The position numbers and the translations under genes are program-made. Positions 50,114 to 64,000 of a stretch of DNA of 64,000 bases are shown piece by piece. Each line of letters begins with the position of its first letter. Position 1 is the first letter of the stretch. The stretch lies in NCBI RefSeq assembly GCF_001425785.1, contig NZ_LMDI01000013.1, positions 63,606-127,605 of the forward strand. Direction: 5' to 3'. The notes under the pieces are model-generated. The model was not told where the DNA came from and did no database searches. It was given only the letters and a program-made list of their open reading frames with translations. The stretch comes from Rhizobacter sp. Root1221 (lineage in GTDB: Bacteria > Pseudomonadota > Gammaproteobacteria > Burkholderiales > Burkholderiaceae_C).

Positions 50114-50425
50114 ATGGATAGCGCAGCCCCGGCGCAATTGCTCGCGTCGGCCGAGACCCACGCTCACATCCACGGCGAGGCGCAGATCCGCGGCTGGATC
50201 GTGCACCGCCTGTCCCGCATGCTGGGCGTGAAGCCCGAGGCCATTGGCATCGATGACCCGCTGGCCGAGTACGGGCTCGACTCGGTGGAGGCCATCGCGC
50301 TGTCGGGCGAGCTGTCCGATCACCTCGGCCGCCGCTGGCCGCCCACGCTGGTGTGGGATCACCCCACGATTGCCGAGCTGTCGCGTTTCCTGGCGGTACA
50401 GATGAAGGGCGGGGCGGCACAGTGA
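50114..50425 (+). CDS. Stand-alone acyl carrier protein
   Basis: A 103-residue carrier protein with the phosphopantetheine site in EYGLDSVEAIALSGELSDHL (Ser of DSVE). Before it lies IRGWIVHRLSRMLGVKPEAI, and the last helix is HPTIAELSRFLAVQ. It is a type II-style ACP of a polyketide/NRPS system. The ribosome site GGAGG precedes the ATG. It overlaps the dehydrogenase gene by four bases and starts the operon. It may shuttle an extender, a starter or a substrate for the neighbouring dehydrogenase or dioxygenase. Confidence 0.92.
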   Translation: MDSAAPAQLLASAETHAHIHGEAQIRGWIVHRLSRMLGVKPEAIGIDDPLAEYGLDSVEAIALSGELSDHLGRRWPPTLVWDHPTIAELSRFLAVQMKGGAAQ

Positions 50426-51567
50426 TCAGCACCGATGCCTGGGTGCTGGCCGCCGGCACCTCGTTCCCCACCGCGCCGGGCCGGCTGCAGCGCGAGACCC
50501 TCCGCTTCGGCGAGATCGGCGCGAACGAGGTGCTGGCCGAGCCGCTGTATGGCTGCTGGGAAGGCAACATGTCGCATGCGCTGCTGCGCTCGCCGGTCGA
50601 CGTGTGCCGGCAGCGTGGCGAGGACCGCATCGTGCTCGGCAACGCCGGCGTCGTGCGCATCGTCGACACCGGGTGCGAGGTGGAGCACCTGCGGCCGGGC
50701 GACCTCTGCGTGCTGCTCAGCGTCGACCTGTGGGACGCGCACGGGTACCCGGTGAGGATCTTCGCCTACGACGCCCCCGGCAGCATCGGCCTGCTGGCCA
50801 AACAGGTGAAGCTGCGCGCCGACCAGGTCGTGCCGATCGCGCGCAACAGCCGCCATTCATTGCAGCAGTGGGCGGCCTTCTCGATCCGTTACGCCTCGGC
50901 CTGGGACAACTGGCAGGTGGCCCACGGCGCCTGGCGCCTGCAGATGAACGAGCCGGGCTTGACGCCCGAGGTCTGGGCCTGGGGTGGCGGCGTGGCATTG
51001 GCCGAGCTGCTGCTGGCCCGATCGCAGGGCTGCCGCGCGACGATGGTCACCTCCAACGACCAGCGCGCCGCGCTGTGCCGCAGCCTGGGGCTCGAGACGG
51101 TCGACCGCCGCGAGTTCCCCGACCTCTGGTTCGACGAGGCCCGCTTCGGCAGCGACCTCGACTACCGGCGGCGCTACATGCGCTCGGAGTCGGCCTTCCT
51201 GCAGCTGGTGAAGGAACGCACGGGCGGCGCCGGCGTGTCGATCTTCATCGACAACATCGGCGGCCCGGTGTTCCGCCCGACGCTGAAGGCGTTGGCGCGG
51301 CAGGGCGTGGTCGCCACTTGCGGCTGGAAGGAAGGCGAGAGCCTTGTGGTCAACCGCGCGGCCGAGTGCATCGGGCGCCACATCCATGTGTTCACCCACG
51401 GCGCCCGCCGCAGCCTCGAGGCCTTCCACTATGCCGAGCGGCACGACTGGCTCGCACCGCCCGACGGCAACGTGTGGGACTGGGAGCGCATCCCCGAGCT
51501 GGCTGACGAGTTCGCGGCCGGCCGCGTGGCGAGCTACTTTCCCCTGTTCCGCGTGAACGCCGACTGA
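50422..51567 (+). CDS. MDR-family enoyl reductase / crotonyl-CoA-reductase-like dehydrogenase
   Basis: A 381-residue zinc-free medium-chain dehydrogenase. The nucleotide-binding region reads EVWAWGGGVALAELLLARSQ, and the later TGGAGVSIFIDNIGGPVFRP plus GVVATCGWKEG is the MDR pattern. The long insert between (FPDLWFDEARFGSDLDYRRR) resembles crotonyl-CoA carboxylase/reductases, although the N-terminal half is divergent. It starts with GTG overlapping the ACP stop (GTGA). The downstream PKS has KR and DH but no ER, so this enzyme could act in trans as enoyl reductase or make an alkylmalonyl extender. Both roles are inference. Confidence 0.75.
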   Translation: MISTDAWVLAAGTSFPTAPGRLQRETLRFGEIGANEVLAEPLYGCWEGNMSHALLRSPVDVCRQRGEDRIVLGNAGVVRIVDTGCEVEHLRPGDLCVLLSVDLWDAHGYPVRIFAYDAPGSIGLLAKQVKLRADQVVPIARNSRHSLQQWAAFSIRYASAWDNWQVAHGAWRLQMNEPGLTPEVWAWGGGVALAELLLARSQGCRATMVTSNDQRAALCRSLGLETVDRREFPDLWFDEARFGSDLDYRRRYMRSESAFLQLVKERTGGAGVSIFIDNIGGPVFRPTLKALARQGVVATCGWKEGESLVVNRAAECIGRHIHVFTHGARRSLEAFHYAERHDWLAPPDGNVWDWERIPELADEFAAGRVASYFPLFRVNAD

Positions 51568-51612
51568 GTCTCCCCCTTCATTGCCGTCGCTCGCGGCACA
51601 GCAACCCTCCGC

Positions 51613-54600
51613 ATGAACCTCCACCTTGGCGCCCGACACCGCGACTTCTCCACGCTGACCGAGCTGCTGCACTGGCGGGCCGATGTCCAGGACGGCGAGC
51701 CGGCCTACACCTTCCTGGTCGACGGCGAACTGGAGGAGCAGTCCCTCACCTTCGGCGCACTGCACCGCGAGGCCTGCGCGCTGGCACACAGGCTGCTGGC
51801 CGAGGGGGCGGCCGGCCGGCCGGTGCTGATGCTGTACCCGTCCGGGCTGGCGTTCATCGTTGCCTTCTTCGCCGCGCTTTACGCGGGCGCGATCGCGGTG
51901 CCGCTGTATCCGCCGCACCGCCGCCGCCACGACGAGCGCGTGGCCGGCGTGATCGCCGACTGCGCGCCTGCACTGCTGCTGACCACTGCCGAGTTGGCGC
52001 GCGACCGCGCGCACTACGCCGAACACACGCCGGCACTCGGCGCGCTGCGGTGGCTGGCCACCGACGAGTCCGGTGCTGGCCTCGCCCGCGAGGCCAGCCT
52101 GCTGCCCCCCGTCGCGCCCGGGCAGCTCGCCTTCCTCCAGTACACCTCGGGCTCGACCGGCCAGCCCAAGGGCGTGATGGTCAGCCACGCCAACCTGATG
52201 ACCAACCTGCGGCTGATCGAGCGCTGCTTCGGCCACGGCCCGGGTACCCGCTTCGTCGGCTGGCTGCCGTTGTTCCACGACATGGGGCTGGTGGGCAACA
52301 CGCTGCAGACGCTGTACCTGGGCGCGCCCTGCGTGTTCATGGCGCCGGCGCATTTCCTGCAAAGCCCGGTGCGCTGGCTCCGCGCGATCTCGCGCTACCG
52401 TGCCACCACCAGCGGCGGCCCGAACTTCGCCTACGAGCTGTGCGTGAACCGCATTTCCGAGGCCGCCCGCCAGGGCCTGGACCTGAGCAGCTGGCAAGTG
52501 GCGTTCAACGGCGCCGAGCCGGTGCGCGCCGGCACGCTCGACCGCTTCGCGGAGGCCTTCGCGCCCAACGGCTTTCGCCGCTCGGCATGGCTGCCTTGCT
52601 ACGGCATGGCCGAGAGCACGCTGCTCACCGCCGGCGCGCCGCGCGGCGAGAGGCCGCTGCTGCTGGGCGTCGATGCGCAGGCGCTGCAACACCGCCGCGT
52701 CGAACTGCGGGCAGACGGTTTCCAGGCCGTGGGCTGCGGCAGCGCGGCCGAAGAGGAGACGCTGGCCATCGTCGACCTGGACAGCGGCACCGAGCGCAGC
52801 GATGGCGGGGTGGGCGAGATCTGGGTCGCCGGGTCCAGCGTCGCGCAGGGGTACTGGGGCCGGGAAGCGCAAACCGCCGAAACCTTCCGCGCCACGCTGC
52901 CGGGCCGCGCGCAACGCTTCCTGCGCACGGGCGACCTGGGCTTCGTGCACGACGGTGAACTCTACGTCGCCGGCCGGGTGAAGGACGTGGTCATCATCCG
53001 CGGCCGCAATCACTATCCGCAGGACATCGAGCGCTGCGTCGAGGCGGCGCATGCCGCGTTCGCCGGCCAGTGCTGCGCGGTCTTCTCGATCGAGGCAGAC
53101 GGCCAGGAGCGGCTCGCGGTGGCCGTGGAGCTGGCGCGCCAGCACCTGCGCCAGCCCGATGTCGACGGCCTGGTGAAGGCGGTGCAGCGCGCGGTGTTCG
53201 CCGCGCACGAACTGCGCCCGCACACGGTGTGCCTGCTGAAGCCGGGCATCATCCCCAAGACATCGAGCGGCAAGATCCAGCGCAGCGCTTGCAAGGCCCG
53301 GCTGCTCGACGGAACGCTGGAGGCCGTTGCGATCTGGCAGGAGACGCCGCGCGATGCGGCGGCGGTAGTGGCCGATGCACCCGTGACCGCCGACAAGCCC
53401 GATCGCGAGGTGTTGCGTGCCTGGCTGTCGAAGCGCCTCGGCTTGCCCTTGCACGATCTGCACGATGCCCGGCAGCTTGCTGAGCTGGGCCTCGATTCGT
53501 TGGCGGTCGTGGAGCTCAGCGCCGAGTTGCAGGCCATGCTGCAGGCGCCGGTGCCGCCGACGGTGTTCTTCGAGGACCCCACGATGGGCGGCCTGCTGGG
53601 GCGTTTGTGCCGCGAAGCCCCCGCCGTGCCTGCCTCCACGGAGATGCGCCAGGCCGGCGACGCGATCGCCATCGTGGGCATCGGTTGCCGCTTCCCCGGC
53701 GCCGATGGCACCGGTGCCTACTGGCAACTGCTGCGCGATGGCCTGGAATCGGTGGGCGAGGTGCCGCCCGAGCGCTGGGACCGCGACGCCTTCTACGACC
53801 CGCGGCCGCTGACGTCCGGCCGCATGAATACGCGCCGCGGCGGCTTCCTGTCGCGCATCGACGAATTCGACGCCGGCTTCTTCGGCATCGCGCCGCGCGA
53901 GGCGGCCTGCATGGACCCACAGCAGCGCGTGCTGCTCGAGACCGCCTGGGAAGCGATCGAGGACGCCGGCATCCCCGGCGCCACGCTGCGCGGCAGCCGC
54001 ACCGGCGTGTTCATCGGCCTGTGCCACAGCGACTACGCGGCGCTGGGCGCCGCCACGGGCCTCGCGCAGGATCCGCGCTGGACCACCGGCAACGCTGCCA
54101 GCATCGCGGCCAACCGGCTGTCCTACCTGCTCGACCTGCAGGGCCCCAGCCTCGCGGTGGACACCGCCTGCTCGTCATCGCTGGTCGCGGTGCACCTGGC
54201 CTGCCAGAGCCTGCGCGCCGGAGAGTCGTCGCTGGCCCTGGCCGGCGGCGTCAACCTGATCCTGCGGCCCGACGTCACGGTGAGCTTCTCGAATGCAGGA
54301 GGAACCAGTCCCGGTGGGCGCTGCCGCGCCTTCGATGCCGAGGCAGACGGCATGGTACGCAGTGAAGGCGTGGGCGTGGTGGTGCTGAAGCCGCTGGCCT
54401 GCGCGCTGGCCGACGGCGACCGCGTCTATGCCGTGGTGCGCGGCAGCGCGGTCAACCAGGACGGGCTGAGCAACGGCCTGACCGCGCCGCGCCAGCCGTC
54501 GCAGGAGGCCGTGATCCGTGCCGCGCTGCAGGCCGCTGGCTGCGCGCCGTCGCAGCTGCAGTACGTCGAGGCGCATGGCACCGGCACGCTCCTGGGCGAC

Positions 54601-57600
54601 CCGGTGGAAGCGCATGCGCTGGGGGCGGTGCTGGGCGGCGAAAGGGCCGAGGCCTGTCGCCTCGGTTCGGTCAAGAGCAACATCGGCCACACCGAGGCCG
54701 CCGCGGGCATCGCGTCGCTGATCAAGGTGGCGCTGTCGCTGCACCACGGCTGGTTGCCGGCGAGCCTGCATTTCGCGCGGCCCAACCCGCACATCCCGTT
54801 CGATCGGCTGAGGCTGCGTGTGCAGGCCGAGGGCGCGCCGTGGCCGGAAGGCGATGCGCGCATCGCGGGCGTCAGTGCCTTCGGCTTCGGCGGGACCAAT
54901 GCCCACGTGGTGCTGGCCCAGGCGCCTGCGGCGGAAACACCGGCCGAGCCGTTGCGGCCCGATGGCCATGTGCACCTGCTGCCGCTGTCGGCGCGTTCCG
55001 CAGCGGCATTGCGGCAGCGGGCGCAGGCGCTGCAGCAATGCCTGATGGCGGCGCCGCACGACACGCATCGGCTCGATGCGCTGTGCGCCGCCGCCGCCCT
55101 GCGGCACGACCATCACGAGCACCGGCTCGCGTTGGCCTTCCACACGCGGGATGAGTTGTGCGAGCAACTGGAGGCTTTCGCGCAGGGCGAACTGCTGGCC
55201 GGCGCTGCTGCGGCCCAGACCTCCGCACAGGCGCCGCAGGTCGCGTTCATCTTCTCTGGTCACCGTGCACAGCCGTGGTCGCTGTGCCGGAAGTTCCTGG
55301 CCAGCCAACCGGTGTTCGCCCAGGTGCTGGCCGACTGCGACCAGGCGCTGCGGCCGCACACCGGCTGGTCAGTGCTGGAGCGCCTCGCGGGGGAGGGCGC
55401 CGCGCCGTCGCCGCAGGAGGTGGCGGCCTACCATCCTTGTCAGTTCGCCTACCAGGTGGCGTTGGCCGCGATGTGGCGCTCGCTCGGCGTCGAGCCGGCG
55501 CTGGTGGTGGGCCACAGCTTCGGCGAGGTGGCCGCGGCCCACGTGGCCGGCGCGCTGAGCCTGGCCGATGCGGCGATGGTCATCGCGCTGCGCAGCCATC
55601 TGCTGCAGCAGGCGGCGCAACAGGCGAGCGATGCCAGCGCGATGGCTTCGGTCGACCTGCCGCGGGCCGATCTGCAGCGCCTGATCGACGCCAGCGATGG
55701 CGAGGTGTCGGTGGCGGTGAGCAACAGTGCCACGTCCAGCGTGGTGTCCGGTGCACGTGAGGCCGTGGAGCGCTTCGTGCAGCGGCTCAAGGCCGACGGC
55801 GTGTTCTGCAACCTGCTCGATGCGCCCGGTGCCGGCCACAGCCGCCACATCGATGCGAGCACGCTGAGCGAGGCGCTGGCCGGGCTGCGGCCGCAGCCCG
55901 CACGCATCGCGATGGTGTCCAGCGTCACCGGGGAGCGGATCGACGGCGTGGCACTCGACGGCGCCTACTGGGCCCGCAACGTCTCCCAGCCGGTTCTGTT
56001 CGGTGATGCGGCGGCCACGCTCCTGCGCCATGGCTGCAGCATCAGTGTGGAGATCGCACCCTATCCGCCGGTGCTGGCGCATGCCGTGGCGCAGACGGCC
56101 CGCGAACAAGGGCACGCCCTCACCACGCTGCCGGCATTGCGCCGACAGGCTGCCGAGAGTCTGCACCTCGCCGGCTCGCTGGCCCAACTGCACGCGCGGG
56201 GCGTGGCGATCGACTGGCGCCGGCTGCATCTGCAAGGCGCACGGCAGACGGCCTGGCCCCCCTACCCATGGCAGCGGCAACGCCATTGGCTGCCCGAGGC
56301 CCATGGTTTGCCGCCTGCCCGGCAGGGGGAGCATCCGATGCTGGGCCAGCGCCTCGACCTCGCCGAGGCCGAGGGCAGCCGCCATGTGTGGGACATCGCG
56401 CTCGACCTGAAACGCCATGCCTATGTGGGCGACCACCGGGTGCAGGGCGCGGTCATCCTGCCCACCACCACGTACGTGGAGCTGGCCTGGGCGGCAGCCG
56501 CGTCGGTGTGGACCGGCCGCCGCGTGCGGCTGGAGCGGCTGGCGATCGAGAGGGCGCTCTTCCTGGCCGACACCGAGCCGCGCCGGCTGCAATTGCAACT
56601 GAGCGTGCTGGGCGATGCGGCCCAGTTGAGTTTCTTCAGCCGGCCGAACTCGGCCTCCGCAGACGGGGCATGGACGTTGCATGCCAGCGTCGACATCGCG
56701 CAGTGCGCCGCCGATGCGCCTGCGCCTGCTGCTTTCCTGTCGCCGCCCGTTGGCGAGCCGCGCTTGAGCGCTGAGCAGCACTACGGGCACCTCCGTGAGC
56801 GCGGCATCGGCTACGGCCCGGCCTTCCAGGGATTGCGTGCGCTATGGCCGCAGGGATCCGCGCAGGTGGCCCGCATCGAGCTTCCGCAGGGGCTGGAGAC
56901 GGCCGGACACCGGTTTCATCCGGCACTGCTCGATGCCTGCCTGCAGGCCCTGGCCGGCGTGCTGCATGCTGGCGGCGAAGGCTCGCGCGACCTCTACCTG
57001 CCGGTCGGCGTCGACAGCATCAGCCTGCATGCCTGGCCTGCGCCCGGTGAGCCGCTGTGGAGCCGTGCACGGTTGGCGCCCGGGGCCCTTGAAGGCCAAC
57101 CAACGCTTGTGGGTGATGTGGAAGTGTTCGACACCGCGGGCCGCCTGCTCGCGAGCATCGACGGCTTCACGCTGGAGCGCGTGGGCTCTGGCGGCGCCAA
57201 GGCCTATCGGGATCCCGATGCGCTGCTGTACGCGCTGCAATGGGAGCCGGTGCCCAACGCCGCCACGCCACCGGCGCCCGAGGCGCGCCGCTGGTTGATG
57301 CTGTCCGATGCGGTGCTCGGTCCCGGGCTGGCCCATGCGCTGCGCGCGGCGGGTGACTGCTGCGTGCAGGTGGTGGCCGGTTGCGACTTCAATACCGGCG
57401 ACGAACGGGCGGTGTGGCAGGCCAATCCCGCCGATGCGATGCAGCTGGCCCGCATGCTCGATGCCGCCGCGGCGCTGTGGCCGGACGAGGCTTTCACGCT
57501 GCTGCATCTGTGGCGTCCGGCGGCCGGCGACGATGCGGTCGTGGGCCTGCTGCAGATGCTGCAGCACATTGCCACGGCCGGCCGGCGCGCGCGGATCACG

Positions 57601-59109
57601 ATCGTGACCTGCGGCGCGCAGTCGGTGGCGCGCGAGTCCAGCGTGGTCGGCGCCGCGTCGCTGTGGGGCCTCGGCCGCGTGATCGGCTTCGAGCATCCGG
57701 AGCTGGAAGGCGGTCTTGTCGACTTGCCGCTGCAGCCCGGCCGCGACGACGTGGCCGAGCTCGCCCTGCGGTTGCGCGACCCCTGGACGCCGATGCGCCA
57801 CCTCGCGATCCGCGGCGGCCGCTGCCTGCAGCCTCGGCTGCAGCGGCTGGCGCTGCCGCTGCAGCCGTCCGGCAAGGCCCAGCCGTTGGCGTTGCGCGCC
57901 GACGCCACCTACCTGGTGACGGGCGGGCTGGGCGGCATCGGGCTGCGGCTGGCGCAGTGGCTGTGCGACCGCGGCGCGGCCCACCTCGTGCTGGTGGGCC
58001 GCAGCGCGCCCGGCGCCGAGGCCGCTGCGCAGATCGATGCGCTGCGCGCCCGCGGCGTCAACGTGCAGGTGGTGTCGGCCGACGTGACGTTCGAAGGCGA
58101 GATGCGCGCGGTACTGGCGCGCGTGGATGCCGAGATGCCGCCGCTGCGCGGCGTACTGCATGCGGCGGCGGTGGTCGACCCGGGCCTGCTGCTGCAGATG
58201 AGCGAGGAGCGCCTCCATGCGGTGATGGCGCCGAAGGCGCGCGGCGCCTGGCACCTGCACCGGCTCACCGCCGAATGCCCGCTCGACTTCTTCGTCCTGT
58301 TCTCGTCGGTGGCCTCGCTGTTCGGCACGCCGGGGCAGGGCAACTATGCGGTGGCCAATGCCTGGCTCGACGGGTTGGCACACCACCGCCGCGCGCTCGG
58401 CCTGCCGGCGCTGAGCATCAACTGGGGCGGCTGGGCGCAGGTGGGCATGGTGGCACGCCACGGCCAGGCCGGTGACGTGTTCGCCGCCCGCGGCTTCTCG
58501 CCGATGGCACCCGAGCTGGCAATCGCACAGCTCGAGCGCCTGCTGCGCCATGACCAGGCGCAAGTCGCGGTGATGGACGTCGACTGGGTGCTGGCGGCGG
58601 CGGCCTATCCGCAGTTGTCGCGCATGTCCACCTTCGCCGGCCTGGTGCGCCGGGCAGAGCCGGCCTTGGCCGAAACGCTGCCGCGCGCCCAGCTGGCCGC
58701 GCTGCCCGCGGCGCAGCGCACCGGGCAGCTCGGGCAGTATCTGTGCGGCCAGCTCGCCCGCACGCTGGGCGTGGCCGCCGGGACGGTCGACGTGCGCCGT
58801 CCGGTGAACGAGATGGGCATCGACTCCCTGATGGCGCTCGAGATGAAGAACCGCATCGAGCCTGAGCTGGGCGTCGCGGTGCCGATCGTCAAGTTCCTTG
58901 AAGGTGCGAGCCTGCACGACCTGGCGGTGCTGCTGTCCGACGAGATCGGTCGCGCACCGGCCGCGCCCGCGCAGGTCCTCTCCGTGGCTGATCGAGACTC
59001 GCTCGACGGCGCAGAAGCCGCCAGCCTGCTGGAGGGGATCGACAACCTGTCCGACGACGAGGTCGATGCGCTGCTGGGCGAACTCGACCCGGACGCCCCC
59101 GCCGCATGA
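51613..59109 (+). CDS. Modular polyketide synthase FAAL-ACP-KS-AT-DH-KR-ACP
   Basis: A 2498-residue synthase. FAAL (about 1-575): YTSGSTGQPKGVMVSHANL and PLFHDMGLVGNTLQTLYLGA, activating a fatty acid as acyl-AMP. ACP1: GLDSL, Ser629. KS (about 683-1105): DTACSSSL Cys853, His988, His1026. AT (about 1208-1500): GHSFGE Ser1302 and GAGHS His1409, an unusual specificity motif. DH (about 1575-1850): His1608 in GDHRVQGAVILP, Asp1774 in LLDACLQAL. KR (about 2098-2280): VTGGLGGIG, Ser/Tyr2245/Asn, loop VVDP resembling the B-type LDD. ACP2: GIDSLMALE, Ser2405. There is no ER or thioesterase. The module should extend an activated fatty acid by one unit. The stop overlaps the NRPS start by four bases. 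Confidence 0.96.
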   Translation: MNLHLGARHRDFSTLTELLHWRADVQDGEPAYTFLVDGELEEQSLTFGALHREACALAHRLLAEGAAGRPVLMLYPSGLAFIVAFFAALYAGAIAVPLYPPHRRRHDERVAGVIADCAPALLLTTAELARDRAHYAEHTPALGALRWLATDESGAGLAREASLLPPVAPGQLAFLQYTSGSTGQPKGVMVSHANLMTNLRLIERCFGHGPGTRFVGWLPLFHDMGLVGNTLQTLYLGAPCVFMAPAHFLQSPVRWLRAISRYRATTSGGPNFAYELCVNRISEAARQGLDLSSWQVAFNGAEPVRAGTLDRFAEAFAPNGFRRSAWLPCYGMAESTLLTAGAPRGERPLLLGVDAQALQHRRVELRADGFQAVGCGSAAEEETLAIVDLDSGTERSDGGVGEIWVAGSSVAQGYWGREAQTAETFRATLPGRAQRFLRTGDLGFVHDGELYVAGRVKDVVIIRGRNHYPQDIERCVEAAHAAFAGQCCAVFSIEADGQERLAVAVELARQHLRQPDVDGLVKAVQRAVFAAHELRPHTVCLLKPGIIPKTSSGKIQRSACKARLLDGTLEAVAIWQETPRDAAAVVADAPVTADKPDREVLRAWLSKRLGLPLHDLHDARQLAELGLDSLAVVELSAELQAMLQAPVPPTVFFEDPTMGGLLGRLCREAPAVPASTEMRQAGDAIAIVGIGCRFPGADGTGAYWQLLRDGLESVGEVPPERWDRDAFYDPRPLTSGRMNTRRGGFLSRIDEFDAGFFGIAPREAACMDPQQRVLLETAWEAIEDAGIPGATLRGSRTGVFIGLCHSDYAALGAATGLAQDPRWTTGNAASIAANRLSYLLDLQGPSLAVDTACSSSLVAVHLACQSLRAGESSLALAGGVNLILRPDVTVSFSNAGGTSPGGRCRAFDAEADGMVRSEGVGVVVLKPLACALADGDRVYAVVRGSAVNQDGLSNGLTAPRQPSQEAVIRAALQAAGCAPSQLQYVEAHGTGTLLGDPVEAHALGAVLGGERAEACRLGSVKSNIGHTEAAAGIASLIKVALSLHHGWLPASLHFARPNPHIPFDRLRLRVQAEGAPWPEGDARIAGVSAFGFGGTNAHVVLAQAPAAETPAEPLRPDGHVHLLPLSARSAAALRQRAQALQQCLMAAPHDTHRLDALCAAAALRHDHHEHRLALAFHTRDELCEQLEAFAQGELLAGAAAAQTSAQAPQVAFIFSGHRAQPWSLCRKFLASQPVFAQVLADCDQALRPHTGWSVLERLAGEGAAPSPQEVAAYHPCQFAYQVALAAMWRSLGVEPALVVGHSFGEVAAAHVAGALSLADAAMVIALRSHLLQQAAQQASDASAMASVDLPRADLQRLIDASDGEVSVAVSNSATSSVVSGAREAVERFVQRLKADGVFCNLLDAPGAGHSRHIDASTLSEALAGLRPQPARIAMVSSVTGERIDGVALDGAYWARNVSQPVLFGDAAATLLRHGCSISVEIAPYPPVLAHAVAQTAREQGHALTTLPALRRQAAESLHLAGSLAQLHARGVAIDWRRLHLQGARQTAWPPYPWQRQRHWLPEAHGLPPARQGEHPMLGQRLDLAEAEGSRHVWDIALDLKRHAYVGDHRVQGAVILPTTTYVELAWAAAASVWTGRRVRLERLAIERALFLADTEPRRLQLQLSVLGDAAQLSFFSRPNSASADGAWTLHASVDIAQCAADAPAPAAFLSPPVGEPRLSAEQHYGHLRERGIGYGPAFQGLRALWPQGSAQVARIELPQGLETAGHRFHPALLDACLQALAGVLHAGGEGSRDLYLPVGVDSISLHAWPAPGEPLWSRARLAPGALEGQPTLVGDVEVFDTAGRLLASIDGFTLERVGSGGAKAYRDPDALLYALQWEPVPNAATPPAPEARRWLMLSDAVLGPGLAHALRAAGDCCVQVVAGCDFNTGDERAVWQANPADAMQLARMLDAAAALWPDEAFTLLHLWRPAAGDDAVVGLLQMLQHIATAGRRARITIVTCGAQSVARESSVVGAASLWGLGRVIGFEHPELEGGLVDLPLQPGRDDVAELALRLRDPWTPMRHLAIRGGRCLQPRLQRLALPLQPSGKAQPLALRADATYLVTGGLGGIGLRLAQWLCDRGAAHLVLVGRSAPGAEAAAQIDALRARGVNVQVVSADVTFEGEMRAVLARVDAEMPPLRGVLHAAAVVDPGLLLQMSEERLHAVMAPKARGAWHLHRLTAECPLDFFVLFSSVASLFGTPGQGNYAVANAWLDGLAHHRRALGLPALSINWGGWAQVGMVARHGQAGDVFAARGFSPMAPELAIAQLERLLRHDQAQVAVMDVDWVLAAAAYPQLSRMSTFAGLVRRAEPALAETLPRAQLAALPAAQRTGQLGQYLCGQLARTLGVAAGTVDVRRPVNEMGIDSLMALEMKNRIEPELGVAVPIVKFLEGASLHDLAVLLSDEIGRAPAAPAQVLSVADRDSLDGAEAASLLEGIDNLSDDEVDALLGELDPDAPAA

Positions 59110-62100
59110 GACCGGTCATGAGCGTTCCCTCCATCCCGAGCCTCATCCATCGCCTGCAGGACACGGCTGCCGAACATCCGCAGCGGCCTGCGCTGGTGGG
59201 CGACGACGCGCGCTTCAGCTATGCCGCGCTGCTGGTCCACTGCACCGCCATCGCCCACGGACTGCAGCACCAAGGCATCGGCCGCGGCGACGTGGTGGTC
59301 GTGTGCATGCCGCGCGGCGCGGGCCTGGTGGCGGCCGCATTGGGCGTGCTGGGCAGTGGCGCGGCCTACACGCTGCTGGAGGACGACGGCGCGGAGCCGC
59401 AGCTGGCGGCGCGGATGCGGGGCTTGCAGCCTGCTCCGGTGATCGCGCTGCCGGCGCGCGCGGCGGGGCTGATGGCGCAGGGAATCGCCGCATTCACGCC
59501 CGATGTGCTGGCCGCGGCAGGCCGCGCCCCCGATGCATTGCCGGCTTCCGGGGGGCTGGCCTATGTGTCCTACACCTCGGGCTCCACCGGCGGCCCCAAG
59601 GGCGTGGCGGTCACGCACGACAACATCGCGCACTACACGGAGTCGGCAGCCGCCCGGCTCCAGGTGGAGCCGGGCTGGTCGTATGCGCACGTGAGCACCT
59701 TCAACGCCGACCTGGGCCATACCGCGATCTTCCTCGCGCTGTGGACCGGCGGCACGCTGCACGTGGCAAGTGACGGCCTGCGGCAGGACCCGGCGGCGTT
59801 GTGCGCCTACCTGGTGGACCAGCGCATCGACCTGTTGAAGATCACGCCCTCGCACTGGCGCGCGGTGCTGGCTGCCGGCAGGGCCTGGCCGCATGCGCTG
59901 AAGCGGCTGGTGCTGGGCGGCGAACGGCTGGCGCCCGAACTGGTGCGCCACAGCTTCGCTGCGGGCGCGGCCGAGCAGGTGGCCAACCACTACGGTCCCA
60001 CCGAGACGACGGTGGGCGTCGCCATCCACCCGATGAAGCCGCATGACCTGGCCTCCCATGAAGGCCGGGCCTCGGTGCCGGTGGGGCGCGCGATCGGCTG
60101 CACCCGCTTCGCGGTCGAGACGGCGCCTGGCCGCTTCGGCGAGTGCGACTGCACCGGCGAGCTGTACATCGGCGGGCCGTCGGTGGCGCAGGGCTACCTG
60201 GGCGACGGCGAGCGCACGGCCGAGCGCTTCGTGCACATCGAGGGCCAGCCGGGCCGCTTCTACCGCACGGGTGACCTGGTGCGCATCGACGCGCAGGGAT
60301 GCGTCGAATGCCTGGGCCGCATCGACCGCCAGGTCAAGCTGATGGGCCACCGCGTGGAGCTGGAGGAGGTGGAGCTTGCGCTGCAGGGCTTCGACGGCGT
60401 GGCGGCCGCGGCGGTGGCGCTGTATCCGGTCAACGGACACGATCAGCTGGTGGCGCTGAGCGCGCCGCGTTGGCCGGCGGAGCGGGTGAAGGCGCTCCGC
60501 CAACTGGCCCGCGAACGGCTGCCGTCGCACATGGTGCCGGCCCACTGGTTCACCTGCGATGCGTTGCCACTCGATGCCAACGGCAAGGTGCACCACCGCG
60601 CGGTGCGCGAACGGGTGGTCGAAGCGCTGGCCTTGGTGCCGCAGGCGGACGCAGCGCTGCGCCCGCTGACGCCACTGGAGGCCGAAATCCATGCCGCCTG
60701 GTGCGAGCACCTCGGCGGCGGGGCCTACGATCCCGATACCGATTTCTTCGAGGCCGGCGGCGATTCGCTGTCGGCGATGCAGATCATCGCGGCGCTGCAG
60801 CTGCGCGGCCATCCGCTCACCGCGCGGCTGTTCGAGCAGCACCGCAGCATCACGTCGCTGGCGGCAGTGATCGAGCGGCTGGACAGCGTGCCGGCGGCGC
60901 GGGCGTTGCCCGAGGTGCCGCCGTCCCAAGGCCGGCTGTCGCCGGCGCAGGCCTGGTTTTTCGCGCAGGCCTTCGATGCACCCGACCACTGGAACCAGTG
61001 CCTGGTCCTGGAGAGCGCGGTGCCGGTCGACGTGGCGCGGCTCGCGCGGGCGGTGGGGCGCGTCCTGGCGGAGCATCCGATGCTGCGCACAGGCTACCGG
61101 CGTGAGGCATCGGACATCGTGCCGTTCGAGGTGAATGTGCAGCATCTGCCGCTGCCGCTGTCGCACGGCAGCGATGTGCAGGCCGACGAGGCCCACGTGC
61201 AGCGCGCAGTGGCCGAGCGTTGCGCCGTGCTCAATGCCGCGATCAGCATCGAGCGCGGCGAGGTGTTCAAGTTGCACTGCGCCGCGTTCGGCGCGCGGCG
61301 CTGGGTATTGGTGCTGGTGGCGCACCACCTGTGCATCGACGCGGTGTCGTGGCGAATCGTCGTCGACGATCTGGTGAGGCACCATGCCGACGATGCGGCG
61401 CCGATGCCGCGGACCTGCAGCTTCTGGCAGTGGACCGCGCACCTGCACGAGCGGCTGCCCGAGGCCTGGCACCGGGCCGTTCGGCCATCGGCCGTGGCGC
61501 CCGGCAGCCGCCGTGAGGGCCAGGCCCGCACGCTGTGGTGCGAGCTGTTCAGTGGCGAGGTGCCCGAAGCAGTCGCCCAGGCCTGCAGCCGCCACGAGGC
61601 CCACCTGGGCACGGTGCTGCTGGGCAGCTTCGCCCATGCCTGCGCGGCGCAGGCCGGGCAGCGCACCGTTGGCATCGACGTCGAGAGCCATGGCCGCGAA
61701 TGTCTGCGCGACGAGGTCGACGTGTCGCGCGTGGTGGGCTGGTTCACCTCCACCTTCGCGCTGTCGCTGCTGGCCGATGCGAGCGACGCCGGCGTGGCGA
61801 TCGCCTCGGCAGCGGCGGCGATGGGGCGGGTGCGCCATCTCGGCCATGGGCATGAGCCCACGGCGGCAACCGGCACGCCGCGGCTGTGCTTCAACTTCAT
61901 CGGCGACATCGGCTTGCGGCACGATCCGGCGCTGCCGCTGTCGGTCTCGCCGCTGGCGCCCGCGCCGGCGCGGGGCCCGTCGAACCGGCGTCCCTATGAC
62001 CTGGTGTTGACGGTCAAGCGCGCCGGCGCCAGCTGGGTGGCCGAGCTGTGCCATTCGGTCGACCGCTACCGGGACGACGAGGTGAAGGCCATTGCACTGC

Positions 62101-63365
62101 GGCTGCTGGCCGCGTTGCACGGGCAGGCGCCTGTCCGGGAGCCGCTGTGCCATGCGGCGCCGCTGGCCGCCGGCGGGTTGCTTGCCCACGTGCCGCCGAC
62201 GCTGCTGCAGGCCACCGTGCCGTCGCAAGCGCAGGGCGGCGCCTACGACTGCATCCTGCTGACCGGTGCCACCGGCTTCATCGGCGCGCACGTGCTGGCC
62301 GAACTGCTGCAGCAAACAACGGCGCAGATCCACTGCCTGGTGCGCGGCCGCCCCGGCCGGCCGGCGGCCGAGCGGCTGGCCGATGCGCTGCGCCGCGTGA
62401 GCCCCGCGCTGGCGGCGCTGCTGCGCGGCCGCGTGACCGTGCTCGACGGCGACGTGTCGCTGCCGCGCTTCGGCCTGTCGGCCGACCAGTACGGCCGGCT
62501 TGTCGCGCAGGCCGACGCGATCTACCACTTCGCAGCCGACGTGCGGCTGTTCGGCGAGGCGGGGCACTTCGAGCGCCACAACGTGGCAGGCGTCGAACAC
62601 GTGATCGCGCTGGCCGGCGCGGGGCGTGCCAAGGACATTCACTGCATGTCCACGCTGGCCGTCGCCGGCGTGGCGCCGCCCGGCCCGCCGTGGCGCTTCG
62701 ACGAGCACTGCCTCGACGGCGGGCAGCAGTTCCAGAACCCTTACGAGGCCTCGAAATACCGCGCCGAGCTGCGGCTGCGCCGCCATGCCGCCGAGGCGCC
62801 GCGCCGGGTGTCGATCTATCGCTCGGGCAACGTCACCGGCCATTCGCAGACGGGCCAGTTCCAGTGCAACGCGAGCGACAACCAGCTGGTACAGCTGCTG
62901 CGCGGCATCGTGGCGCTGGGCCGCTACCCGCGCCACACGCAGGAAGGTGTCGTGCTCAGCCCCGTCGATGTGGTCGCCCGGGGCATCGTCGAGATATCGC
63001 TGTCGCCTGGCCGTGGCGGCACCTTCCATGTCGACAACAGCCAGCCCACGCCGTATGCGCAGGTGTTCGAGGCGATGCGCGAGCTGGGCCTGCCCTTGCA
63101 ACCGCACGAGTCGCCCACGTTGCTGGCGCTGCTGTCGTCGGCCACGGACGCCGGCCAGCGCGACGCGGCGCTCGCGCTGTCGTGGGCTGCTCGGCCGCCG
63201 CGCAACGTGGCCTACGACCATGCGCGAAGCACCGCGCTGCTGGCCGGACTGGGCGTGCGCTTCCCGGCCATCGGCCGCGCTTGGCTGCACCAGTTCGTCG
63301 CCCACCTGATCGAGGCGCGCGCGTTGGCGCCCGCACCGTCCGAGCTGTCGCCCGCAGCTTCATAG
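59106..63365 (+). CDS. Nonribosomal peptide synthetase A-PCP-E-reductase, no condensation domain
   Basis: A 1419-residue synthetase. The adenylation domain (about 30-500) has YVSYTSGSTGGPKGVAVTH, the NHYGPTETTVG core and the A10 Lys in LDANGKVHHR; its substrate-code region reads STFNADLGHTAIF, two residues longer than the usual FDxS. The PCP has FFEAGGDSLSAMQ (Ser554). The condensation-superfamily domain at about 595-1010 carries epimerase signatures: LSPAQAWFF, HWNQ, VAHHLCIDAVSWRI (His741, Asp745), VESHGRE, VGWFTS, FNFIGDIG. The last domain is a thioester reductase (LTGATGFIGAHVLAELL; PYEASK with Tyr1213, Lys1217), releasing an aldehyde or alcohol. No C domain exists in the window. An alternative start is the ATG at 59118. 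Confidence 0.95.
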   Translation: MRPVMSVPSIPSLIHRLQDTAAEHPQRPALVGDDARFSYAALLVHCTAIAHGLQHQGIGRGDVVVVCMPRGAGLVAAALGVLGSGAAYTLLEDDGAEPQLAARMRGLQPAPVIALPARAAGLMAQGIAAFTPDVLAAAGRAPDALPASGGLAYVSYTSGSTGGPKGVAVTHDNIAHYTESAAARLQVEPGWSYAHVSTFNADLGHTAIFLALWTGGTLHVASDGLRQDPAALCAYLVDQRIDLLKITPSHWRAVLAAGRAWPHALKRLVLGGERLAPELVRHSFAAGAAEQVANHYGPTETTVGVAIHPMKPHDLASHEGRASVPVGRAIGCTRFAVETAPGRFGECDCTGELYIGGPSVAQGYLGDGERTAERFVHIEGQPGRFYRTGDLVRIDAQGCVECLGRIDRQVKLMGHRVELEEVELALQGFDGVAAAAVALYPVNGHDQLVALSAPRWPAERVKALRQLARERLPSHMVPAHWFTCDALPLDANGKVHHRAVRERVVEALALVPQADAALRPLTPLEAEIHAAWCEHLGGGAYDPDTDFFEAGGDSLSAMQIIAALQLRGHPLTARLFEQHRSITSLAAVIERLDSVPAARALPEVPPSQGRLSPAQAWFFAQAFDAPDHWNQCLVLESAVPVDVARLARAVGRVLAEHPMLRTGYRREASDIVPFEVNVQHLPLPLSHGSDVQADEAHVQRAVAERCAVLNAAISIERGEVFKLHCAAFGARRWVLVLVAHHLCIDAVSWRIVVDDLVRHHADDAAPMPRTCSFWQWTAHLHERLPEAWHRAVRPSAVAPGSRREGQARTLWCELFSGEVPEAVAQACSRHEAHLGTVLLGSFAHACAAQAGQRTVGIDVESHGRECLRDEVDVSRVVGWFTSTFALSLLADASDAGVAIASAAAAMGRVRHLGHGHEPTAATGTPRLCFNFIGDIGLRHDPALPLSVSPLAPAPARGPSNRRPYDLVLTVKRAGASWVAELCHSVDRYRDDEVKAIALRLLAALHGQAPVREPLCHAAPLAAGGLLAHVPPTLLQATVPSQAQGGAYDCILLTGATGFIGAHVLAELLQQTTAQIHCLVRGRPGRPAAERLADALRRVSPALAALLRGRVTVLDGDVSLPRFGLSADQYGRLVAQADAIYHFAADVRLFGEAGHFERHNVAGVEHVIALAGAGRAKDIHCMSTLAVAGVAPPGPPWRFDEHCLDGGQQFQNPYEASKYRAELRLRRHAAEAPRRVSIYRSGNVTGHSQTGQFQCNASDNQLVQLLRGIVALGRYPRHTQEGVVLSPVDVVARGIVEISLSPGRGGTFHVDNSQPTPYAQVFEAMRELGLPLQPHESPTLLALLSSATDAGQRDAALALSWAARPPRNVAYDHARSTALLAGLGVRFPAIGRAWLHQFVAHLIEARALAPAPSELSPAAS

Positions 63366-63384
63366 CAACCACAAAGGCATCCGC

Positions 63385-64000
63385 ATGACCGATTTTCCTG
63401 CCCGCCCGTTGCGCGACGACGCGCGGCTGCCGCTCGTCGTCGACGCGCCCGCCGCGGGGCGAGACCTTGCCGGCTTCACACGCACGCACCGCCAGGCGAT
63501 CGAGGCCCGGGTGCTGGCGCACGGCGCGGTGCTGCTGCGTGGCTTCGCGGTGGCTGACGTGGCGGCCTTCGACCGCTTCGTCGGCGCGCTCACCGACGAC
63601 CGGCTCGACTACCTCTACAGCTCCACGCCGCGCACCGCGCTGGGCGACCGGATCTTCACCGCCACCGAGTATCCAGCCGCGCTGGATATCCCGCTGCACA
63701 ACGAATGTGCCTACCAGCGCGACTGGCCGATGAAGATCAGCCTGTGCTGCCTGCAGCCCGCGGCCACCGGCGGCGAGACGCCCCTGGCCGACATGCGGGG
63801 CGTGGGCGCGCGGCTGGGCGAGGCGCTGCTCGACCGCTTCGAGTCGCGCGGCGTGCGCTACGTGCGGCACTACCACCCGCTGATGGACGTGCCGTGGCAG
63901 AAGTCGTTCCAGACCGACGACCGCGCCGAGGTGGAGCGCATCTGCCATGAACGCGGCATCGCGTGCGACTGGCTGGCCGGCGACGTGCTTCGCACCAGCC
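63385..64000 (+). CDS. TauD/SyrP-like Fe(II)/2-oxoglutarate dioxygenase, 3' cut by window edge
   Basis: The first 205 residues of a TauD/TfdA-family oxygenase. After an N-terminal GAVLLRGFAVADVAAFDRFV the iron-binding His-x-Glu appears in DIPLHNECAYQRDWPMKISL, followed by CCLQPAATGGETPLADMRGV. The HxE (in place of HxD) and the LHNExxYxRxWP pattern match SyrP-like enzymes, which hydroxylate amino acids bound to NRPS carriers. The second His and the 2-oxoglutarate Arg lie beyond the window. It starts 19 bases after the NRPS stop, so it belongs to the same operon and probably tailors the carrier-bound amino acid. Confidence 0.9.
   Translation, partial: MTDFPARPLRDDARLPLVVDAPAAGRDLAGFTRTHRQAIEARVLAHGAVLLRGFAVADVAAFDRFVGALTDDRLDYLYSSTPRTALGDRIFTATEYPAALDIPLHNECAYQRDWPMKISLCCLQPAATGGETPLADMRGVGARLGEALLDRFESRGVRYVRHYHPLMDVPWQKSFQTDDRAEVERICHERGIACDWLAGDVLRTS

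Follow-up and report, generated by a model that had tools for sequence, protein, structure and literature searches.

The 64,000-nucleotide stretch analysed here (the window; contig C13, positions 63606-127605, of the 6.9 Mb, 76-contig genome of Rhizobacter sp. Root1221) carries at its right-hand side a row of five biosynthetic genes that forms the left end of a larger cluster, with a DUF6817 gene and a non-ribosomal peptide synthetase (NRPS) gene following downstream. The product is probably a lipid-tailed peptide whose tail is branched by means of an unusual CO2-adding enzyme. More specifically, we give an even chance to a branched-tail lipopeptide cluster that combines an extender-unit route based on a divergent relative of crotonyl-CoA carboxylase/reductase (CCR) with a side line starting from Asp. 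The genes and domains are the following; FAAL stands for fatty acyl-AMP ligase, ACP for acyl carrier protein and MDR for medium-chain dehydrogenase/reductase.

50114..50425, + strand: free ACP, 103 aa (Pfam PP-binding, 4.9e-16)
50422..51567, + strand: putative divergent CCR-like MDR enzyme, 381 aa, GTG start (domain searches, alignment, predicted structure)
51613..59109, + strand: FAAL-ACP-KS-AT-DH-KR-ACP synthase, 2498 aa (Pfam, NCBIfam; motifs by eye)
51649..53325, + strand: FAAL domain (NCBIfam PRK05850, 454 bits; FadD32, 400 bits; both below cut-off)
53662..54939, + strand: KS domain (Pfam, 6.3e-95)
55246..56208, + strand: AT domain, with GAGH at about 55828-55839 replacing HAFH/YASH and SGHRAQ replacing GQGxQ
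56332..57195, + strand: DH domain (domain search)
57904..58437, + strand: KR domain (domain search)
59106..63365, + strand: stand-alone synthetase A-PCP-E-R, with an A domain that reads as Asp-specific, 1419 aa (domain search, motifs, A code)
63385..64000, + strand: TauD-family dioxygenase, 333 aa, ending 386 bases beyond the window (L001:2991-3992; Pfam TauD, 2.5e-36)
L001:4046-4615, + strand, beyond the window: DUF6817 gene, between the TauD gene and the NRPS gene (Pfam, 1.9e-27)

The stop codon of the ACP gene is overlapped by the GTG of the MDR gene (50422), and that of the polyketide synthase (PKS) gene by the ATG of the A-PCP-E-R gene (59106), while the remaining gaps amount to 45 bases (MDR-PKS) and 19 bases (A-PCP-E-R-TauD). 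A sequence-only reading of the window had given these five genes in this order and place, with two start/stop overlaps among four junctions and no gap above 45 bases, and open reading frames (ORFs), Pfam and NCBIfam bear it out. The FAAL is fused to an ACP and followed by a full KS-AT-ACP module, as in FAAL-primed type I PKSs, and the active-site motifs can be seen by eye in the translation (KS TACSSS, EAHGTGT and KSNIGHTE; DH HRVQGAVILP; KR GNYAVAN). The E-values (the best being that of the KS) exclude chance domain matches. The domain content thus supports the FAAL priming and the single PKS extension module claimed earlier, and likewise the amino-acid activation and epimerisation domains, the latter called from motifs by eye, and the TauD dioxygenase.

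The cluster had also been expected to run past the window, and it does: on the same strand follow the remainder of the TauD gene, the DUF6817 gene and a C-A NRPS gene, and the contig ends 4.4 kb on. The DUF6817 family is present in 33 of 399 sampled genomes of the bacterial family. At the end of C13, Ns and a doubled 124-base stretch indicate a strained assembly. Here C13 overlaps by 105 bases with an end of C64 (100%) and of C61 (99%), and the other ends of C64 and C61 each overlap by 99 bases (100%) with an end of C31. C64 and C61 each encode PCP-C-A-PCP-C (cut), and C31 encodes the tail of a C domain and A-PCP-C-A-PCP-TE, followed by an MFS exporter and an acyl-CoA dehydrogenase (ACAD). From these repeat overlaps we infer the join C13-C64/C61-C31 and the module order; collapsed repeats may hide modules. 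The join to C31 is independently supported by relatives of its ACAD, one of which (37%) lies just before ACP-MDR-FAAL-FAAL in the metagenome-assembled genome (MAG) AMP-55 (L006), with a free ACP between ACAD and MDR, and another (51%) adjoins a free ACP in Janthinobacterium sp. CG3.

The A-domain codes were placed by hand, with two domains checked against LgrA. The C64 code, DILQLGLIWK, is one that we take to specify Gly, and a basic side chain is a guess for the C61 code, DAEGVGTVVK. The last C31 code, VDYATGIADK, lacks Asp235, the residue that holds alpha-amino groups, and is hence assumed to be of the beta-amino-acid type. In the available part of PMC12283262, the code of the A domain downstream on C13, DLKNVGSDVK, is entered for homoserine, and DLTKVGHVGK, found both in A-PCP-E-R and in the first C31 A domain, for Asp/Asn, mostly Asp.

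By this code the A-PCP-E-R protein reads as Asp-activating. It begins at its A domain, Pfam finding no N-terminal C domain, and nothing that could accept a growing chain, as in a terminal reductase module, precedes the A-PCP; since the protein has no C domain of its own, a take-over of the chain from the PKS is not evident. The E domain, which Pfam names only Condensation (6.6e-32), shows by eye the motifs HHLCIDAVSWR, ESHGRE, RVVGWFT and FNFIG, and the R-domain motifs TGATGFIG and YEASK are intact by eye. As the contig overlaps link the line to C-A-PCP-TE on C31, the reductase is probably not the release step of the lipopeptide. Rather, the protein seems to form a side line of its own, with a D-Asp-derived aldehyde or alcohol as its product. 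The TauD fold, together with Asp-coded A domains in the cluster (A-PCP-E-R, C31), agrees with a SyrP-like aspartyl hydroxylase, and the predicted activity of the enzyme is perhaps beta-hydroxylation of PCP-bound Asp.

Among plasmid records, three cover at least 80% of A-PCP-E-R, and full-length relatives with Asp-type codes exist in Paraburkholderia phymatum and Rhizobium leguminosarum. The third, a Nostoc match (H28), was rejected as a stand-alone A-PCP-E-R because it is part of a 1955-aa ORF. Searches with the E-R part matched only the own genome, both among 399 genomes of the family (1e-60) and among 398 of the phylum (1e-80), soft results in that two candidates were scored per genome. On P. 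phymatum plasmid pBPHY02 (L098:11450-20058), A(Asp)-PCP-E-R is accompanied by a Ddl-like ATP-grasp ligase, a MATE exporter and an SDR, and no further synthetase is annotated in the 34 kb covered. Plasmid p3 of R. leguminosarum GLR17 (L099:5611-25744) has A(Asp)-PCP-E-R, a plasmid-borne serS, SDRs, a TauD protein, A-PCP-R and a thiamine diphosphate enzyme; the locus looks like a small-molecule antibiotic cluster carrying its own resistance copy. All three loci, despite their differing neighbours, would make sense as a self-contained route that turns Asp into a D-amino aldehyde or alcohol. The same two plasmid loci favour a somewhat unlikely alternative, that A-PCP-E-R and TauD belong to an unrelated small-molecule pathway, to a bioactive D-Asp-derived amino aldehyde, that has landed inside a lipopeptide operon. 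Against it, the A-PCP-E-R gene overlaps the PKS gene within a co-oriented operon, and the last module, with its unusual A code, could use the A-PCP-E-R product.

The branched tail depends on the MDR enzyme. Described earlier as a CCR-like dehydrogenase, it keeps the Asn and His of the CO2 site; as to family membership it is no canonical CCR but one of a divergent clade, scoring 49.5 bits against TIGR01751, far under the cut-off of 378.55. The CO2-binding residues of KsCcr, listed in the available part of PMC10966969 as N81, F170, E171 and H365, align with N49, Y116, D117 and H326. The N, D and H are invariant in 35 of 35 MDR sequences, of which the D and H lie outside the scan seed. In a control of 13 ordinary MDRs of the own genome, the His occurs in none and the Asp in one; around N49 the alignment is too poor for that site to be counted. 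The predicted structure (pLDDT 83) has the CCR fold, CCR/ECR structures being its nearest matches, narrowly. Carboxylation is predicted for this divergent CCR-like clade.

The neighbourhoods of its relatives, 34 of which were found in genome contigs, point in the same direction. In 12 of these loci (L012, L013, L014, L018, L020, L022, L023, L024, L025, L028, L029 and L037), a lower bound given that many contigs are cut, genes of the ethylmalonyl-CoA-pathway type adjoin the MDR gene. These loci come mostly from Deltaproteobacteria/Myxococcota MAGs. The set comprises a CitE/malyl-lyase family protein, a 550-aa ACAD with an N-terminal extension, a protein of the mesaconyl-CoA-hydratase type (in L012: PF19315, 6.8e-11) and a member of the methylmalonyl-CoA-mutase family, identified by hidden Markov models in L012, L014 and L037 and by tblastn elsewhere. 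All four follow downstream in one row in L012 and L023; three do in L013, with the mutase on the opposite strand, and eight loci have ACAD and mutase. Operons with MDR, lyase, 550-aa ACAD, hydratase and mutase span L012:10001-17288, L023:3852-9243 and L037:10001-14861. The clade may take the place of the canonical CCR in ethylmalonyl-type operons of Deltaproteobacteria/Myxococcota.

Eight other relatives have a KS in their locus (L005, L006, L008, L027, L030, L034, L035, L036). The six Myxococcus/Pyxidicoccus loci form one clade, and KASIII genes are seen in L015, the only annotated one of the six. In the MDR tree (midpoint root, weak deep forks) the ethylmalonyl group is split in two by intervening PKS rows, an arrangement that carboxylation as the old function would fit. 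Two of 100 relatives, the own genome included, and one of 369 genomes of the class, the own, matched in the MDR search. A later protein search of plasmids added four MDR relatives (Embleya, Azospirillum, two Burkholderia). Near those of B. stagnalis and B. arboris, no PKS occurs in the 14 kb examined, where the record allowed, so the link between MDR and PKS is not general.

The acyltransferases of these loci were compared by motif. The motif reads GAGH in the window and in CG3, GPGH in AMP-55, RAGH in L030, TAGH in L034 and GAAH in L027. Embleya, found after the pattern was seen, fits it, with FAAL-ACP-KS-AT followed by MDR and an AT with GAGH, and Azospirillum B510 has one atypical AT (VAPH) and one malonyl-like AT (RAFH). 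Altogether, the motif is unlike HAFH/YASH, and consists mostly of small residues, in eight of nine distinct ATs in MDR loci versus none of three that do not adjoin an MDR (the second PKS of CG3, HAFH; C17, HAFH; C19, HGFH). This count leaves out Legionella L036 (no AT found), Herpetosiphon L008 (AT cut), L035 (a near copy of L034) and L005 (CG3 again); the pattern scan missed L030, which was recovered from the alignment, and may have missed other ATs. Replacement of HAFH/YASH by small residues, as in the window, is expected of an alkylmalonyl-selecting AT, and such a substrate is predicted here. As far as the available parts of the two papers go, SPGH has been tied to bulky alkylmalonyl units (PMC6490886) and VPGH to a bulky alkylmalonyl unit, possibly ACP-tethered (PMC3943440). 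The window AT also has SGHRAQ in place of GQGxQ, and its GHR is common to the CG3 and AMP-55 ATs; it may mark an AT taking ACP-bound units.

Several observations weigh against a carboxylating MDR and a branched tail. On the CCR family model alone, the enzyme does not come closer to CCR than ordinary MDRs do: nine of the 15 matches in the own genome are ordinary MDRs with a higher score (up to 77.9 bits, versus 48.4), another CG3 protein outscores the CG3 MDR (73.7 versus 43.9 bits), and genomes G829-G831 hold other proteins at 110-131 bits, all below the cut-off. That ordinary MDRs score higher lowered our confidence from slightly better than even to even. None of the 14 genomes tested, mostly MAGs of unknown completeness, passes the canonical CCR cut-off. 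In the MDR clade, E171 of KsCcr is replaced by Asp and F170 mostly by Tyr, and N49 lies within the scan seed, so that finding it conserved in the 34 scan loci is in part a consequence of the search itself. The HAFH AT of CG3 is part of the very cluster that holds the CG3 MDR, at a distance of 34 kb from it. AT motifs predict poorly according to the available parts of two papers, in one of which VAGH gave no substrate prediction (PMC10646177) and in the other a motif swap had no effect (PMC6090053). The contig joins depend on 99-105 base repeats common to four contig ends, and the module number and order are tentative; an N between the first PCP and the second C interrupts the reading frame of the C31 NRPS, and Xs touch the A domains of C13 and C31. 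The main text of PMC12283262 does not contain VDYATGIADK, for which a beta-amino-acid reading is assumed.

It is unlikely that the MDR is instead a trans-acting enoyl reductase completing KS-AT-DH-KR to a saturated chain, with the AT taking malonyl-CoA and the tail straight. A reductase alone accounts for neither the ethylmalonyl-CoA-type genes adjoining the clade, nor the conserved Asn and His of the CO2 site, nor the non-malonyl AT motifs. Very improbable is the single collinear line with reductive release proposed by the sequence-only reading, with the PKS handing its chain to A-PCP-E-R to give a lipo-aminoaldehyde or alcohol: the gene order, the overlapping start and stop, and an R domain terminating an NRPS in the related CG3 cluster speak for it, but A-PCP-E-R has no N-terminal C domain, the CG3 R domain, with no more than 33% identity, belongs to a protein whose first domains are C and A, the C domain downstream of A-PCP-E-R is closest (57%) to the one directly after the PKS in CG3, and the linked assembly line ends in a TE.

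In the branched-tail lipopeptide pathway that we prefer, the FAAL would load a fatty acid onto its fused ACP, and KS-AT-DH-KR would add one unit to give an alpha,beta-unsaturated acyl chain. MDR, free ACP and the C31 ACAD would convert a second acyl chain, on ACP or CoA, through the 2-enoyl form into an alkylmalonyl unit, whose acceptance by the GAGH-type AT would leave an alpha-branched tail. The homoserine-type C-A module would receive the acyl chain first, followed by the modules of Gly, basic, Asp and beta-amino-acid type, with the TE and the MFS exporter at the end. Outside this line, A-PCP-E-R would load and epimerise Asp, perhaps beta-hydroxylated by the TauD enzyme. Reductive release would give a D-Asp-derived aldehyde or 3-amino-4-hydroxybutyrate, which may be the beta-amino acid that the last module uses. 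A more far-reaching version is doubtful: here a FAAL-loaded free ACP, an ACAD forming 2-enoyl-ACP and an unrecognised CCR clade, shared with the Deltaproteobacteria/Myxococcota ethylmalonyl-type operons, would provide an ACP-bound long-chain alkylmalonyl unit, the PKS would join two chains into a mycolate-like two-tailed acyl lipopeptide, and A-PCP-E-R would supply D-3-amino-4-hydroxybutyrate to the last module.

If the preferred pathway is true, a whole carboxylase clade has been overlooked because it lies far below the CCR family cut-off, spanning ethylmalonyl-CoA-type loci and natural-product clusters that range from Burkholderiales to one Actinomycete and one MAG of a Bacteroidota. It would offer a new enzyme for branched polyketide extender units, and in genomes it would point directly to lipopeptides with branched tails. 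From the stand-alone Asp A-PCP-E-R, a chiral amino aldehyde or alcohol would be obtained enzymatically in a simple way.

The own genome also holds other FAAL, NRPS and PKS genes. C45 (L104:5585-12691) carries a second FAAL-like gene and a luciferase-like monooxygenase, both assigned by eye, and two ACADs that match the one on C31 at 42% and 35%. C19, C55 and C62 (L052, L054, L057), whose contig ends share 98-155 bases, hold another NRPS-PKS line with FAAL and TauD, and more NRPS genes lie on C17 and C8/C60.

No paper describing this gene set was found in the literature searched, which largely excludes subscription journals; identity with a named cluster was dropped, and the earlier statement that no named pathway matches stands. 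The downstream genes, which might have shown a part of a known pathway, do make the five genes part of a larger cluster, one that cannot be named. Cupriachelin and taiwachelin, siderophore lipopeptides of Burkholderiales, share with the window a FAAL start, Asp and a TauD-type hydroxylase, a likeness by description, not sequence; they are not known to have a CCR-like MDR, ACAD, stand-alone A-PCP-E-R or GAGH AT. The A-PCP-E-R proteins of pBPHY02 (37% identity) and p3 (32%) resemble that of the window in their four domains, full length and Asp-type code, and differ in their neighbours, with no adjoining lipopeptide line. With the CCRs KsCcr, AntE and CinF, the MDR shares the fold, the CO2-site Asn and His (Glu being changed to Asp and Phe to Tyr) and, across its clade, an ethylmalonyl-CoA-type context; unlike them, it has about 20% identity, a score far under the cut-off, a distinct CWEGNM motif, and a free ACP and FAAL as neighbours. 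The polyoxypeptin extender operon, in the available part of PMC3943440, consists of CCR, KSIII and ACP, and its authors suggest an ACP-tethered alkylmalonyl unit; it likewise pairs CCR with ACP and a small-residue AT motif (PlyU, VPGH), whereas in the window FAAL and ACAD replace KSIII and the MDR is of another clade. A further close counterpart is the Janthinobacterium sp. CG3 cluster (L005, L043-L046), arranged as MDR-FAAL-FAAL-ACP-KS-AT-DH-KR-ACP-C. It differs in its two FAALs, in an extra NRPS/PKS line of about 38 kb (with N stretches) whose last gene encodes an R domain, and in having no close A-PCP-E-R (best R match 33%), and it agrees with the window in MDR (66%), FAAL (56-59%), KS (71%), AT (53%, with GAGH), KR (71%), C (57%) and the ACAD (51%) adjoining a free ACP.
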